32,614 nt of DNA from a virus, in the IMG/VR virus record IMGVR_UViG_3300037010_004170, positions 1 through 32,614 of that record, one strand, 5' to 3'. Shown in pieces: positions 16,372-23,885 of this stretch. The position numbers were made by a program, and so were the translations under genes. Each line of letters opens with the position of its first letter. The first letter of the stretch is position 1. The notes below the pieces were generated by a model that worked only from the letters and a program-made list of their open reading frames with translations, had not been told where the DNA came from and searched no databases.

Positions 16372-16435
16372 TGCTCGGTGAGGGGCGACCCAGGTCTCGT
16401 GTCCCCGTCATGCCGCCGACCCACTCCATCGTGGA

Positions 16436-16472
16436 TCACCCCTCCCCCGCTTCGCTTGAGGGGAGGGGATGA
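16436..16472. repeat. Palindromic 37-nt repeat, copy 1
   Basis: CCCCTCCCC (16439-16447) pairs with GGGGAGGGG (16460-16468) around a 12-base loop CGCTTCGCTTGA. An identical 37-nt copy lies at 17293-17329. Its flank also shares an ACCCACTCCATCG-like segment with the second copy. The form resembles chromosomal REP-type intergenic palindromes. Confidence 0.85.
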
Positions 16473-16527
16473 TCCTCCCTGCCCATCCATTTCCCGGGCC
16501 ATGCCTGGGCCAGCATCGAGGGGTTCC

Positions 16528-17273: not shown

Positions 17274-17292
17274 TAACCCACCCCATCGGGAC

Positions 17293-17329
17293 TCACCCCT
17301 CCCCCGCTTCGCTTGAGGGGAGGGGATGA
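17293..17329. repeat. Palindromic 37-nt repeat, copy 2
   Basis: Identical to 16436-16472, including the 9-bp CCCCTCCCC/GGGGAGGGG stem and the CGCTTCGCTTGA loop. It lies 20 bases after the zinc-ribbon stop. The position suggests a transcript end or processing site; there is no T-tract. Confidence 0.85.
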
Positions 17330-17424
17330 GTCCAACTCCCTCGCCCATTCAGGGCACGGTCCCGGCCTGCCGTTCCAGGCCGATGCACGTTCATGCTCCA
17401 ACCGGAGCTTTCAAGGAGGCCATC

Positions 17425-18001: not shown

Positions 18002-18107
18002 CGGCGTGTACCGATCACCAAGGGGTGTGATCGGGGGGCCCGACGCCCGCCAGGAATCGTCCTGGCTGGGGGAGCCGCCGGGCCCAAGTCCCCATGAAGG
18101 AGGAACC

Positions 18108-18695
18108 ATGCTCATCCGGGAGACCGTCCGGCTCTACGGAGCGGACAGCGTGAAGACGGAAGACCTGCTTCGAGTCCTCGGCATCCCCGAGCCCTACGGC
18201 ATCGTGGACGTGATGGCTGGCAACACCGCCGGGATGCCGCCGGAAGCTCAGATCAAGGCCGAGGCCCTGGCCCAGCTCATCCGGACGCCCCGCGCCTGGG
18301 AGAAGCCGCAGCGCATCACTAGCCCCCGGGCCGCAGGCGACTACCTGCTGCCCAAGACTCAGGGCTGGACCGAGGAACGCTTCGGCTTGCTGGCCCTGAA
18401 CGCCAAGGGCGACCTGCTGGCGGATCGCATCCTTTCCAGGGGCACGGCCACGGCCACCATGATTAGCCCCCGCGAGTTCTTCCGGGAGGCCCTGCGCCAC
18501 GGCGCCACCACGGCCCTAGCCTTCCACAACCACCCCAGCGGAGATCCAACCCCCAGCGACGAAGACCGGAAGCTCACCCGTCGTCTTCGGACGGCCGGCG
18601 ATTCCCTGGGTGTGCCCCTGTCGGACCACCTCGTTCTCGGCAACAACCGCTACTTCAGCTTTCGGGCCGCCGAGGGCTGGGACCGGGAGTCGTAA
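18108..18695 (+). CDS. radC: RadC/JAB-domain protein
   Basis: ATG 18108 (MLIRETVRLYG) is preceded by AAGGAGGAACC, giving 195 residues. The C-terminal JAB/MPN-like domain has the metal site HNHPSGDPTPSDED (H140, H142, S144, D153) followed by a DHLVLGNNRYFSF ending. The preceding ALNAKGDLLADRILSRGTAT segment is typical RadC. RadC is common in mobile elements and phages; its reaction is not settled, and roles in DNA repair or anti-defence have been proposed. Its stop shares a base with the next start (TAATG). The gene stands just before the recombination block. Confidence 0.85.
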   Translation: MLIRETVRLYGADSVKTEDLLRVLGIPEPYGIVDVMAGNTAGMPPEAQIKAEALAQLIRTPRAWEKPQRITSPRAAGDYLLPKTQGWTEERFGLLALNAKGDLLADRILSRGTATATMISPREFFREALRHGATTALAFHNHPSGDPTPSDEDRKLTRRLRTAGDSLGVPLSDHLVLGNNRYFSFRAAEGWDRES

Positions 18696-18850: not shown

Positions 18851-18887
18851 ACCGGATGCTGGAAAATCTCTGGCATCCGGTATTTTT
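18851..18887 (+). terminator. Strong rho-independent terminator
   Basis: ACCGGATGC pairs with GCATCCGGT across a 13-base loop, followed immediately by ATTTTTT. It closes the radC and membrane-protein unit. Confidence 0.85.
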
Positions 18888-18899
18888 TGTCCGTATGAT
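18870..18899 (+). promoter_or_regulatory. Possible promoter for the recombination operon
   Basis: CTGGCA (18870-18875) and TATGAT (18894-18899) are separated by 18 bases. The -10 is good and the -35 weak. It overlaps the terminator and precedes the 18942 gene, so a new transcript may start here. Confidence 0.35.
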
Positions 18900-18941: not shown

Positions 18942-19322
18942 ATGGGTTCCGAGGAAACCAAAATCAAGCTGACCCGCTGGGTCAGGATCGAATCGGCTGG
19001 CGGGGACTACCTCAAGGGGGCCCGCATCCATGTGATCGCCTCCCTCGTGGTTGACGATGGCATCGAGGAAGAGCTGGCCAGCGGCCACGCCTCCGTCAAC
19101 CTGGGCAAAGAGGTGTCCATCCTGGAGGTCATGGACGCGCAGACGTTCACCACCGAAAGCGAGGTGGGCATGAAGCTCTGGATGAAGGCGGTAGAGAAGC
19201 TCTACGCCGACCTGAAGAAGAAGCAGGACCTGCTCGAGGTGCAGACCCATCTGGCCCTGGCCGAGTTGCCCACGGTTCAGCACGTCAAGGGCGAACGCCC
19301 CAAGATCACGGTCGAGGCATGA
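18942..19322 (+). CDS. Unknown protein opening the recombination operon
   Basis: ATG 18942 follows AAAAAGGAGGAACCC, an excellent ribosome site, giving 126 residues. The N-terminal half is beta-prone (KIKLTRWVRIESAGGDYLKG, then RIHVIASLVVDDG), and the C-terminal half helical (MKLWMKAVEKLYADLKKKQD). No family is recognised. Its end overlaps the start region of the first ERF gene. Being first after a terminator, it may be regulatory or a DNA-metabolism accessory; neither is shown. Confidence 0.65.
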   Translation: MGSEETKIKLTRWVRIESAGGDYLKGARIHVIASLVVDDGIEEELASGHASVNLGKEVSILEVMDAQTFTTESEVGMKLWMKAVEKLYADLKKKQDLLEVQTHLALAELPTVQHVKGERPKITVEA

Positions 19323-19324
19323 CG

Positions 19325-19747
19325 ATGCTCAAACACACCGAAAGCATCGCCGCACTCAGCGAGGCGATCTCCCAGGCCCAGGCCGAAGCGAAGAAAACCA
19401 CGAAGGGTTCTGTGAACCCGGCCTTCAAGTCCAAGTATGCCGACCCGACAGAGGTGTTCAACACGGTTCAGCCAGTCTTCTTGAAGCATGGTATCTCCAT
19501 CACCCAGAACCCACAGATGGACAACGGAGTGGTCACGGTAAGGATACTCCTCTCCCACAAGGGCGGGGAGTGGATCGCCTCGGAATGCTCTGCGCCTGTG
19601 AGCAAGCACGACGTCCAAGGGGTGGGTTCAGCCATCACCTATTGTCGCGACTACGCCCTAGCGGAAGTCATGGATCTCCTGGTCGTCCCGAAGGAGAGCC
19701 GCGGCAAGACAGCCGTGGCCCAGGCCTTCGCGCCGGCGAGGAAATGA
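19325..19747 (+). CDS. Degenerate ERF-family annealase paralogue
   Basis: The 140-residue product begins MLKHTESIAALSEAISQAQA; ATG 19325 has GAGG 7 bases upstream, better than ATG 19319. Over residues 1-113 about 91 positions are identical to the full ERF protein encoded at 20909-21559, including GSVNPAFKSKYAD and GVGSAITYC. After this it diverges: the second arginine of CRRYALA is aspartate here and the ERF acidic motif (QEDDDGN) is absent. The reading ends at RGKTAVAQAFAPARK. It may be a decayed copy, or a modulator that mixes into ERF rings; neither is proven. It overlaps the next gene. Confidence 0.75.
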   Translation: MLKHTESIAALSEAISQAQAEAKKTTKGSVNPAFKSKYADPTEVFNTVQPVFLKHGISITQNPQMDNGVVTVRILLSHKGGEWIASECSAPVSKHDVQGVGSAITYCRDYALAEVMDLLVVPKESRGKTAVAQAFAPARK

Positions 19748-19890
19748 TGCCGCCCTACCTCGTCATGACCACGATTGCCGTGGTGTTTTTCCTTGCTGGA
19801 ACCCTCAAGCGTCGGCCCCTTCTGGGGCTGGCGCTGGGGCTTCTGGCCGCCTCTGCCTTCTACTTGGGCCTCGTCGGCCCCACCCCATGA
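19747..19890 (+). CDS. Small two-span membrane protein between ERF and exonuclease
   Basis: ATG 19747 (or the adjacent ATG 19744) overlaps the ERF-like stop (ATGATG), with GAGG 5 bases upstream. The 47-48 residues are hydrophobic in two segments (YLVMTTIAVVFFLAGTL and LLGLALGLLAASAFYLGLV) separated by KRRP, so a hairpin with its basic loop in the cytoplasm is likely. The stop overlaps the exonuclease upstream ATG (ATGA). The function is unknown. Confidence 0.5.
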   Translation: MPPYLVMTTIAVVFFLAGTLKRRPLLGLALGLLAASAFYLGLVGPTP

Positions 19891-19898
19891 GGAACACC

Positions 19899-20909
19899 AT
19901 GATCCACAGCTTCATCCCCAACAACCGGGAGGCCTGGCTGGCCGTTCGGCGCCAGTACATCACCGCTACGGACGTCGTGGCCATCGAGGGCCTGTCGTCC
20001 TTCGCCAGCGCCCACGAGGTTCTGCTTGACAAGAAGGGCCTCCTGCCCAGAAAGCCGGGCAACCGGGCCATGGCCATCGGCAACCTCCTGGAGCCGCTCA
20101 TCCGGGCGGAGTTCGCCCGGAAATACGACGTGCAGGCCTGGGAGAGCCAGGGCGAACGGATCTACTGCGACGACGCCCGTCACCTGGCGGCTACGCCGGA
20201 TGGGCTCTTCCTTCAGGGCGAAGACCGCCTGATTCTGGAGATCAAGACCTCCATGAACAACTGGCGGGAGATCCCGGCCCGGGTGCTCCTCCAGGTGAAG
20301 CATCAGGCCGTGCTGGGAGAAGCCAGCAAGGGCTTCATCGCTCACCTTCATGTGCCCGAGGAGGCCCAGGAGGAGATCCTGGTCCGGGCCGCCCTGGGCC
20401 AGCCCCTCAGCCTGGAGGGCCTGGGCGCCATCGAGACCTATCCCTTCTCCTTCGCGGTGGAGGACCTCGAAGCTCACGCCCAGCGTTATCACGTCTGGTA
20501 TGAGAACCACATCCTCTTCGGGGCGCCGCTGCCCGAGCAGATGCCCAGCCCCAAGCCGGAGCTCACCCAGAGCGTGAGTGATGACCAACTGGTGAGCGCC
20601 TGGTTCGAAAAGAAGCGCCTGGCCGACGAACACGAGGAGCAGGCCAAGGCCTACAAGGCCCAGAGGAAGGAGATCGAGGACCAACTGGTGGCCCTCTATC
20701 CCGATGCCAAGAAGTTCCTGGGCGGCGGCAACGCCGTGTCCCGGTCGTTCACCGCCGGGGCGATGAAGGTGGACAACGAAGGCCTGTTGAACGCCATCGT
20801 CCTCAAGCATCCCGAACTCAACCCCGAGGTCCGCTCCCTGGAGCCGAACTTCATCACCTATGGGTCCGGCTATTCGCGCTGGATCCCATCCAAGAAAAAG
20901 GAGGCATGA
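19899..20909 (+). CDS. YqaJ-type recombination exonuclease
   Basis: ATG 19899 has GAGG six bases upstream, giving 336 residues; ATG 19887 is an in-frame alternative. The PD-(D/E)XK nuclease fold shows E65 in GNLLEP, D101 in ATPDG, and E114/K116 in LEIKTS, the expected metal-site residues. LLQVKHQAVLGE follows as usual for YqaJ. The enzyme resects DNA ends 5' to 3' so that a partner annealase can load, here the adjacent ERF protein. C-terminal residues are helical and charged. It ends within the start of ERF. Confidence 0.88.
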   Translation: MIHSFIPNNREAWLAVRRQYITATDVVAIEGLSSFASAHEVLLDKKGLLPRKPGNRAMAIGNLLEPLIRAEFARKYDVQAWESQGERIYCDDARHLAATPDGLFLQGEDRLILEIKTSMNNWREIPARVLLQVKHQAVLGEASKGFIAHLHVPEEAQEEILVRAALGQPLSLEGLGAIETYPFSFAVEDLEAHAQRYHVWYENHILFGAPLPEQMPSPKPELTQSVSDDQLVSAWFEKKRLADEHEEQAKAYKAQRKEIEDQLVALYPDAKKFLGGGNAVSRSFTAGAMKVDNEGLLNAIVLKHPELNPEVRSLEPNFITYGSGYSRWIPSKKKEA

Positions 20910-21559
20910 TGCTCCAGCACACCGAAAGCATCGCCGCACTCAGCGAGGCCATCGCGCTCGCCCAGGCCGAAGTGGAGAACGCCACGAAGGGCTCGGTGAA
21001 CCCGGCCTTCAAGTCCAAGTACGCCGATCTGGCAGAAGTGCTCAACACGGTTCGGCCGGTCTTCTCGAAGCACGGCATCGCCATCACCCAGCACCCGCAG
21101 CTGGACAACGGGGTGGTCACGGTGACGACACTTCTCTCCCACAAGAGCGGAGAGTGGATGGCCTCCGACTGCTCCGCGCCCGTGAGCAAGCATGACGCCC
21201 AGGGAGTAGGCTCGGCCATCACCTACTGCCGCCGCTACGCCCTGGCCGCCCTGACGGGCGTTGCCCAGGAGGACGACGATGGCAACAGCGCCGTGGGCAA
21301 TGCCGCGAAGGGCGGATCCGGGCAGCAGGTAAGGCCCGCGATTCCTCTGCCTCCGCCGTCGGCCCTGGCTGCCGCCAAGGAACGCTACAAGGAAGCCAAG
21401 GAGAAGGCCTTCGCCAAACTCCTGACGACCATGGACGAGCCCACGGCCCGGGAGCACCTCGGCAACATCGAGAGCGCCACGGCCGAGCAGGAGAAGGATC
21501 CCGCCAAGCGCGCGGAACTCCTCATCGCGGCCATGATGGCCATCGTGAACCGGGCCTAG
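20909..21559 (+). CDS. ERF-family single-strand annealing protein
   Basis: ATG 20909 has AAGGAGG four bases upstream; ATG 20906 overlaps the exonuclease stop but is too close to the site. The 216-residue product contains KGSVNPAFKSKYADLAEVLN, then GVGSAITYCRRYALAALTG and QEDDDGN, the ERF superfamily hallmark. Its C-terminus is a charged helical region (KERYKEAKEKAFAKL). ERF proteins form rings on single strands and anneal complements. The upstream exonuclease would supply the strands. Confidence 0.9.
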   Translation: MLQHTESIAALSEAIALAQAEVENATKGSVNPAFKSKYADLAEVLNTVRPVFSKHGIAITQHPQLDNGVVTVTTLLSHKSGEWMASDCSAPVSKHDAQGVGSAITYCRRYALAALTGVAQEDDDGNSAVGNAAKGGSGQQVRPAIPLPPPSALAAAKERYKEAKEKAFAKLLTTMDEPTAREHLGNIESATAEQEKDPAKRAELLIAAMMAIVNRA

Positions 21560-21560
21560 C

Positions 21561-21998
21561 ATGAAGGATTGGCCCAGCCTGAACCAGGTCACGCTCATCG
21601 GCAAAGTGGCGCGATGCCAACGGATTCAATGGTCCGACGGCAGCGCCACGGCCTGGTTCAGGCTGGTCACGCGCAAGGTGGTGGCTACCCCCAAGGGTTT
21701 CCAGCCGGGATACGACTTCCATGAAGTCGAGGTGAGCCCTGCCGACCGCTTCTTCTCGAAAGCATGGGAAGGGGCGGTCGTCATGGTTCGTGGCGAGTAC
21801 GAGAGCCATGCCTGGACCCCGCGGGGGGCCACCACGTCTTTCGACCGGCACACCCTGGCGGCCCGTGCCTTCCAGCTGATCTTGCCTTCCGACAAGCCGC
21901 AGGTTCCAATCCCAACCCTCTTCCGGGCGCATCGCCAGGAGATCGAACCAACCACACGAGGACATTCCCATGAGCGAACCGAATCCCCCGAGGGATAA
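21561..21998 (+). CDS. SSB-like OB-fold protein
   Basis: ATG 21561 starts 1 base after the ERF stop, giving 145 residues. Residues 1-110 have an SSB-like pattern: LNQVTLIGKVARCQRIQWSD, then ATAWFRLVTRK, DFHEVEV and VVMVRGEYESHAW. These correspond to the strands of an OB-fold. There is no DDIPF-like tail; it ends with a polar stretch (TTRGHSHERTESPEG) where the next gene overlaps. It likely binds single-stranded DNA during annealing, as a second, tailless paralogue of the SSB at 22596. Confidence 0.65.
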   Translation: MKDWPSLNQVTLIGKVARCQRIQWSDGSATAWFRLVTRKVVATPKGFQPGYDFHEVEVSPADRFFSKAWEGAVVMVRGEYESHAWTPRGATTSFDRHTLAARAFQLILPSDKPQVPIPTLFRAHRQEIEPTTRGHSHERTESPEG

Positions 21999-22595: not shown

Positions 22596-23039
22596 ATGGC
22601 CGGCAGTTTGAACAAGGTCCTTCTCATTGGCAACCTCGGGCGAATACCCGAAGTAAAGTCAACACCCAGCGGGCAGACCGTGTGCCGCTTTTCCGTAGCC
22701 ACCACGGAGAGCTGGAAGGATCAGAAAGGCGAGAAGCAGACCAAGACCGAATGGCACAACGTCGTGGTCTGGGGCAAGCAGGCCGAGGTGGCCGGGAATT
22801 ACCTCCACAAGGGCAGCCTCGTTCACGTCGAAGGTCGCATCCAGTACCGCGAATACACCGACAAGGCTGGCGTGAAGAAGACCGCCTGCGACATTCGATG
22901 CGACAACTTCGTGATGCTGGACCGGAAGCCCGAAGGCGAGGGCGCCCAGCGCCAGTACGGCCACCCTGCCGACGACCAGGACGGCATGCTCCCCGCGGCC
23001 AGCACTAGTTCCTTCCTCGACGACGACATCCCGTTCTGA
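22596..23039 (+). CDS. ssb: Single-stranded DNA-binding protein
   Basis: ATG 22596 has GGGAGG at a good distance, giving 147 residues. LNKVLLIGNLGRIPEVKSTP, EWHNVVVWGKQAEVA and VHVEGRIQYREYTDKAGVKK are canonical SSB OB-fold motifs. A low-complexity linker leads to the C-terminal DDDIPF tip, which binds host repair proteins. It protects single strands during replication and supports the adjacent ERF/exonuclease pair. Confidence 0.95.
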   Translation: MAGSLNKVLLIGNLGRIPEVKSTPSGQTVCRFSVATTESWKDQKGEKQTKTEWHNVVVWGKQAEVAGNYLHKGSLVHVEGRIQYREYTDKAGVKKTACDIRCDNFVMLDRKPEGEGAQRQYGHPADDQDGMLPAASTSSFLDDDIPF

Positions 23040-23190: not shown

Positions 23191-23463
23191 ATGAAGCGCA
23201 TCGTCCGCATTGCCGAAGAGCAAGACCTGACGGATTTCGCCAAACGGGCCGCCCTGGCCTTTCAGGACAATCCCGCGCAGTATTCCTATTCCGAAGCGGT
23301 AGATCGCCCTGGTGAGGGCACCGACCTGCATGCAGAGGACCTCCTGGCCCTGCGCTGGAACAGCATGAGCGTCCTGGTCTGCCGGTTGTCCGATTTCGAG
23401 CCGAGACTCTATCCGGTGCACCAGTTCATCAAGGGCGCCCTTCCCAAAGCGGAGAACGAATGA
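23191..23463 (+). CDS. Unknown early protein (90 residues)
   Basis: ATG 23191 has AAGGAG 7 bases upstream and is the first gene after the terminator. The product begins MKRIVRIAEEQDLTDFAKRA and has LVCRLSDFEPRLYPVHQFIK near the end. Its mixed alpha/beta character matches no recognised family. It overlaps the next gene by 4 bases (ATGA). Confidence 0.6.
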   Translation: MKRIVRIAEEQDLTDFAKRAALAFQDNPAQYSYSEAVDRPGEGTDLHAEDLLALRWNSMSVLVCRLSDFEPRLYPVHQFIKGALPKAENE

Positions 23464-23885
23464 GCGAGTTGGCGATCCACACCGAAGATGGAAAGGCCCT
23501 CATCGAGGCCTATCGCAAGACCCACGACGATCCCGAAGAAGACTTCGAGACAACCCTGGGCGACTATCTGGCGGACCTCATGCACGGAGCCGACGCCCTG
23601 GGCGTGGACTTCGAGGAAGCCTTGCGCCGAGGCTATGCCCACCATGCCGAAGAGAAGAAAGAACAGCCCGAGGCCACCCCTGATCCCCACATGGACCAAG
23701 GCGTCCGACTCCGCCGTCTCGCGCCTGGAACCCTTAATGTTCCCAAAGGAGTCGAGGGTACCGTCAAGGCGATGGGTCTTGGCCCCGAGGCTGACTTCAT
23801 GGTGGATTGGGACAACGGATTCACGGGGGACACCTACGAGTGGTCGGACGTAGACGTGCTTATCGAAGTGGTGGAGGCGCCATGA
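23460..23885 (+). CDS. DUF4314-like protein
   Basis: The 141-residue product has a helical N-terminal half (GKALIEAYRKTHDDPEEDFE) and a C-terminal beta half. The C-terminal part (VRLRRLAPGTLNVPKGVEG, TVKAM, FMVDWDNG) resembles the DUF4314 pattern with P-x-G-x-x-G-T-V followed by WDNG, a small beta-barrel common in phages and mobile elements. The exact role is unknown. The gene overlaps both neighbours by ATGA. Confidence 0.55.
   Translation: MSELAIHTEDGKALIEAYRKTHDDPEEDFETTLGDYLADLMHGADALGVDFEEALRRGYAHHAEEKKEQPEATPDPHMDQGVRLRRLAPGTLNVPKGVEGTVKAMGLGPEADFMVDWDNGFTGDTYEWSDVDVLIEVVEAP

Follow-up and report, generated by a model that had tools for sequence, protein, structure and literature searches.

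The virus record studied here (IMGVR_UViG_3300037010_004170, positions 1 to 32,614, called the window) is 32,614 nucleotides long and is that of a tailed phage. The structural arm lies on the minus strand and carries the terminase, portal/head-tail adaptor, major head and internal-virion genes. The recombination/replication arm lies on the plus strand. A direct repeat of 68–73 nt (16419–16486 and 17276–17348, 89% identity) sits between the two arms around CACCCCTCCCCCGCTTCGCTTGAGGGGAGGGGATGA, a sequence that can be read as a strong hairpin; this repeat is a candidate terminator, regulator or origin element. Directly upstream of the recombination operon is a RadC-like JAB-domain gene (18096–18695; PF04002, 126.7 bits). 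A terminator-like hairpin (18851–18899; 13 pairs, then ATTTTTTG), with a weak promoter-like site overlapping it, is located just 5′ of the first gene of the operon and likely marks its border.

The recombination genes form a chain on the plus strand. The first is an ORF of 126 aa (18942–19322), which was not assigned to a family and whose TGA overlaps the start of the next gene (ATGA). This next gene, ERF1 (19319–19747, 142 aa), is a truncated and diverged paralogue of the ERF annealases; it scores 67.7 bits against PF04404 (cut-off 25 bits) and belongs to PHROG 2324. An alternative in-register ATG is found at 19325, and a preliminary description of the locus had used this start. A hydrophobic ORF of 48 aa follows (19744–19890), with ATGA overlaps at both ends. 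Two possible membrane spans can be read from its sequence, and neither a family nor a relative was found for it. The chain continues with a YqaJ/lambda-exonuclease-type recombination nuclease of 340 aa (19887–20909; PF09588, 58.9 bits, cut-off 22; PHROG 434) and ends with ERF2 (20906–21559, 217 aa; PF04404, 96 bits). ERF2 is a full ERF annealase with the RRY motif, the EDDDGN motif and a helical C-terminal domain. All four junctions in the chain are clean ATGA stop–start overlaps. The arrangement given in the preliminary description, two ERF genes flanking a YqaJ exonuclease, is borne out by these coordinates and by the Pfam hits of all three genes.

Downstream of ERF2 there is a weak SSB-like (OB-fold) gene (21561–21998, plus strand; PF00436, E = 1.3e-4, below the cut-off) and, further on, the clear SSB gene of this arm (22596–23039, plus strand; PF00436, 5.6e-38; PHROG 44). 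The two SSB-like genes, one diverged and one clear, may be another pair that arose by duplication and divergence within this arm. None of the PADLOC defence families matched ERF1 or its neighbours. The exonuclease, annealase and SSB set is the same as in the two-component Exo-SSAP recombination operons (lambda Red type; YqaJ + Erf + SSB), but here an extra, truncated annealase gene is placed ahead of the exonuclease.

Sequence comparison of ERF1 and ERF2

The 5′ part of erf, approximately 345 nt from the GAGGCATGA start region to codon ~116, is present a second time upstream of the exonuclease. The homologous stretches are 19324–19664 in ERF1 and 20908–21248 in ERF2, with a nucleotide identity of ~84–85%. 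BLASTN aligned the two genes with 84% identity over 349 nt (E = 6e-109), which rules out chance similarity. At the protein level, 91 of the 113 residues between positions 3 and 115 of ERF1 are identical to ERF2 (80.5%, 22 differences), and the hand count of about 80% in the preliminary description was therefore accurate. Only two ERF1 losses in the homologous part, L43P and R111D, fall at sites that are at least 90% conserved over all relatives. The second of these affects the invariant second arginine of RRY. Codon 111 of ERF1 is GAC (Asp; 19649–19651) and codon 110 of ERF2 is CGC (Arg; 21233–21235), just as had been noted for the CRRYAL arginine.

The homology ends sharply on its 3′ side. 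Nucleotide identity is ~0.85 and then falls to the background level from codon ~116. The in-register identity is 0.73–1.0 before the breakpoint (0.73–0.87 at codons 98–112), drops between codons 113 and 118, and is 0.27–0.4 from codon 118 on. Beyond the breakpoint is an unrelated-looking tail of about 27 codons (19665–19747), for which an identity scan and shuffle tests gave no demonstrable homology to ERF2; the residual likeness of the two tails is marginal (p = 0.04 for the protein shuffle and 0.16 for the nucleotide shuffle). The acidic motif of ERF2, E122-D123-D124-D125, is encoded at 21269–21280. EDDDGN is missing from the ERF1 tail, which at its best alignment to the motif reads KESRGK, and ERF1 also lacks the ~85 C-terminal residues of ERF2. 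The drop in identity at codon ~116 and the marginal likeness of the tails mean that the C-terminal domain and the acidic motif were cut off or replaced at the breakpoint. The absence of QEDDDGN from ERF1, claimed earlier, is confirmed; point changes did not visibly produce it, and the two genes place the loss at a breakpoint near codon 116. A compensatory charge swap (R111D together with EDDD → KESR, forming an orthogonal oligomer interface) was considered and dropped, as the homology of the tail is not significant and AF2 gives a pLDDT of ~50 there. Positive selection for the excess change in the tail was also rejected, since the breakpoint accounts for the excess.

The ERF1 frame is intact, with no in-frame stop or frameshift, in agreement with the preliminary description. 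This carries little weight because a second reading frame over ERF1 is also open in this high-GC DNA.

Both proteins can be compared with the ERF annealase family (PF04404, PHROG 2324/155; phage P22 Erf, phage D3 Erf and Gp77). ERF2 is a member by its PF04404 match and by the conserved RRY and EDDDG motifs; it has all the conserved columns and the Rad52-like core. ERF1 is a member by score and has the core sequence and predicted fold, but it is without the invariant RRY arginine, EDDDGN and the C-terminal domain. Judged by these features, ERF1 is an ERF by descent, and this does not imply ERF function.

Conserved positions and relatives

The arginine at R110 (ERF2 numbering) has a frequency of 1.00 in 140 other ERFs. 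In the same proteins, D123 and D124 are Asp at a frequency of 1.00, E122 is conserved at 91% and D125 at 99%, with the qualification that the ERF2 search was seeded partly with the peptide AQEDDDGN and its set leans to intact motifs; the ERF1 search was made without that seed. A second comparison again gave near-invariance at these positions.

The nearest ERFs elsewhere are ~67% identical to ERF2 and 48–50% identical to ERF1. Searches with ERF1 and ERF2 found no close relative beyond a second record of the same virus, and those with the YqaJ exonuclease and the 126-aa protein matched only this second record. A scan of genome contigs gave one locus, an ERF of Pseudomonas luteola with 59% identity. 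When viral contigs were searched for the RDY pattern, 21 loci matched, and the sole ERF among them was that of this virus. The ‘two recombinases’ of Salmonella phage SB28 were discarded as a second case; the two annotated CDSs overlap beneath a single split tblastn match and are read as one erf that has been split, not as a duplication. A relative's ERF (L078; record G069, 23315–23689) has a TAA within the matched stretch and is possibly a truncated, broken or recoded erf.

The second IMG/VR record measures 55.4 kb and contains the window in full; there are two differences between them, of which one falls at a synonymous site in ERF2 (window position 21172). Since both ERF copies are present in this record too, an assembly accident is an improbable source of the arrangement. 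The frequency of ERF pairs was examined by a PF04404 check of 100 records: this virus, one Pseudomonas genome (two ERFs on different contigs) and 98 other viral records. A second ERF was present in 2 of the 98, G084 (L167 and L168) and G096 (L169 and L170). In both, unlike in the window, the copies are far apart (~31–34 kb), and each copy keeps RRY/RRF and the acidic motif, which ERF1 does not. The G084 copies are 78.5% identical to each other. These two records may be real two-ERF phages, or chimeras or joined genomes of two phages. A pair with a truncated member, such as ERF1/ERF2, was found in none of the 98 other viral records and was seen only in this virus (two records). Among the records checked, two ERFs seldom occur together, and no other operon was seen to contain an ERF paralogue lacking the motifs.

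The preliminary description had held that relatives with only one copy would speak against its reading. Nearly all relatives do have a single ERF, but the best of them is only 67% identical. At this distance, their single copies imply no more than a recent or lineage-specific duplication.

Substitution pattern and constraint on ERF1

The pairwise ω between ERF1 and ERF2 is 0.095 over codons 3–110. When the amino-acid differences in the core were polarized by the 20 closest relatives, 14 were placed on ERF1 and 1 on ERF2, with 6 unclear. In the tree, ERF2 is the sister of ERF1, and every listed relative is nearer to ERF2 than to ERF1. That the first copy is a degenerate duplicate, as claimed earlier, is supported by 14 of the 15 polarized differences falling on ERF1 and by the conservation of R111 (100%) and EDDD (91–100%) in the 140 ERFs. 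ERF1 changes fall at sites conserved in close relatives 8 times against 7.2 expected, and at sites conserved across all 140 relatives once against 2.9 expected (p = 0.16). Going by these counts, ERF1 changes hit conserved sites as often as chance would have it, which is the look of relaxed constraint.

Branch models with a shared clock gave an ω of 0.18–0.29 for ERF1 and 0.07–0.09 for the background; ω = 1 was rejected (2ΔlnL of 15–26), a rejection that holds only under this clock, which presumes that both copies have been in one genome since the duplication. Fits without the clock were dropped. Their estimates swung from 0.16 to above 5 and were compatible with neutrality of ERF1. This instability arises because synonymous sites are saturated against the relatives, which leaves no way to apportion synonymous change between the ERF1 and ERF2 branches. 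In simulations, strict neutrality over the whole history of ERF1 had a P of about 0.01–0.17. Strict neutrality throughout is thus disfavoured, and without a clock it is still compatible with the data. Nonsynonymous changes cluster after residue 115 of ERF1 (scan p = 0.0005), and relative to synonymous changes they are more frequent in the tail than in the core (p = 0.011).

The description of ERF1 as decaying is therefore only partly upheld: the relaxed pattern agrees with it, but the clocked ω, with ω = 1 rejected, speaks against it, and neutrality is compatible only once the clock is removed. We infer that ERF1 was constrained for most of the time and that the constraint was lost late, perhaps with the truncation. 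Continued selection of ERF1 for an altered role would account just as well for a clocked ω of 0.2–0.3 and for the lack of stops and frameshifts.

Predicted fold and possible roles of ERF1

The AF2 models of ERF1 and ERF2 have a common core of α1, α2, three strands and a long α3, with a pLDDT above 90 in most of it. In ERF1, the pLDDT is above 90 in most of residues 11–118, and the tail (~50) is unstructured in the model. Structural comparison of the models with Gp77 (PDB ID: 9y6u, 9y6u_IA) gave Z scores of 14.7 for ERF2 and 14.0 for ERF1, far above any other match. RAD52 and Mgm101 come next (Z of about 5.6–6.9), a level that is not decisive alone. Both models show the elements of the Rad52-like core fold (three strands, α2 and α3), and the Rad52 SSAP fold has been described for Erf (PMC9870868). 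On the strength of its model, ERF1 probably folds as a Rad52-like core.

Basic residues of α3 in RAD52 and LiRecT hold the inner ssDNA strand, and charge reversals or double mutations are needed to break this binding (PMC9772228). By motif alignment, rather than by residue-level superposition, R109-R110 of ERF2 would correspond to K152-R153 of RAD52. This alignment places the pair in the groove, and R111D therefore puts a negative charge in the presumed ssDNA groove of ERF1. Because the change reverses the charge on α3, ERF1 alone is unlikely to bind or anneal ssDNA, and from its sequence it probably cannot do so by itself.

We favour, with a probability of roughly 0.55, the reading that ERF1 is a partial ERF paralogue that has been truncated, is under relaxed constraint and lies in an operon with translational coupling. 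It is probably inactive alone and was once constrained. On this reading, the tailed phage carries the usual exonuclease, ERF annealase and SSB genes for recombination and, in addition, a partial second erf. The extra erf copy would long have been a working ERF under constraint before it was truncated, and would now be evolving under relaxed constraint. ERF2 would perform the annealing on single strands made by the exonuclease, and ERF1 would most likely be a passenger in the ATGA-coupled chain upstream of both. Its open frame may be kept in part because a stop or frameshift in a coupled chain could be polar, a polarity that we deduce from the overlaps.

Alternatively, as the preliminary description also suggested in proposing a regulatory subunit that poisons or tunes the rings, ERF1 could be a retained modulatory subunit whose core joins ERF2 in mixed rings and lowers, gates or recycles ssDNA binding, much like a Rad59-type paralogue acting alongside Rad52. 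Such subunits are proposed to act through the missing groove arginine, acidic tail and C-terminal domain. We hold this to be rather doubtful on the present analysis, and give it some weight because the core fold of ERF1 is predicted to be intact (Z of 14.0 to the Gp77 core). The clocked ω, the place of ERF1 in a coupled operon beside the exonuclease, and the Rad59 precedent of an annealase paralogue binding its partner (PMC3496973) are also in keeping with it. The clustering of nonsynonymous changes after residue 115, with a tail ratio above that of the core, could be added, but the breakpoint accounts for this clustering. In addition, the changes in the ERF1 core do not spare conserved sites, and no relative has kept such a truncated form. 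The likeness to yeast Rad52/Rad59 is one of functional analogy only: there, too, two Rad52-fold annealases are paralogous and one is shorter. Rad59 itself binds and anneals ssDNA, whereas ERF1 is known here from sequence and model. Conservation across related genomes would also be expected of a Rad59-type paralogue, and the ERF1 form was found only in this virus. A further possibility, which seems unlikely, is a division of the annealase between a functional ERF and a shortened one with reversed groove charge, the latter entering the same rings to set how firmly they grip ssDNA; the phage would then be making a recombinase subunit that is dominant-negative or has a tuning effect.

It is quite unlikely, in our estimate, that ERF1 was captured rather than duplicated in place, as the 5′ portion of an erf that recombination introduced from a related phage of lower GC, with most of the divergence predating its arrival. 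The GC3 of the ERF1 core is 0.76–0.77, compared with 0.88–0.89 for ERF2, 0.88 for YqaJ and 0.53–0.80 for the relatives, and the unclocked branch fits give unequal synonymous change on the two branches. Nevertheless, GC3 may also drift under relaxed selection, and no donor nearer to ERF1 than to ERF2 was found; the listed relatives are nearer to ERF2, which is the sister of ERF1 in the tree.

That ERF1 acts as a decoy or shield is very improbable. The systems concerned would be those of hosts or satellites that sense phage annealases (Stl2-type inhibitors, or sensors binding ERF rings). Phage annealases do serve as targets: Stl2 binds the C-terminal domain of Sak (PMC11846896), Exo-Erf licenses Gabija (PMC12407980), and the nearest solved ERF, 9y6u, is by its PDB title a RAZR:Gp77 complex. 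However, ERF1 is without a C-terminal domain, the part of Sak bound by Stl2, and would be a poor decoy for the Stl2 type; no target system is known for the host of this virus, and there is no sign of recurrence in other phages. An assembly artefact or chimera is scarcely credible. The record is metagenomic, and misassembly can occur between repeats spaced 1.6 kb apart, but the DNA of the two copies diverges by 15%, the four ATGA junctions are clean, and the 55-kb second record shows the same arrangement with 2 differences over 32.6 kb.

The ERF1 finding is a rare but small variation on the known theme of the ERF operon. If ERF1 is a fading duplicate, as we favour, it documents the duplication of part of a gene within a recombination operon. 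Were it instead a subunit of the ERF2 ring, it would mean that phages tune their own recombinase, and it would offer a tool to ask how many ring subunits must hold ssDNA for annealing.
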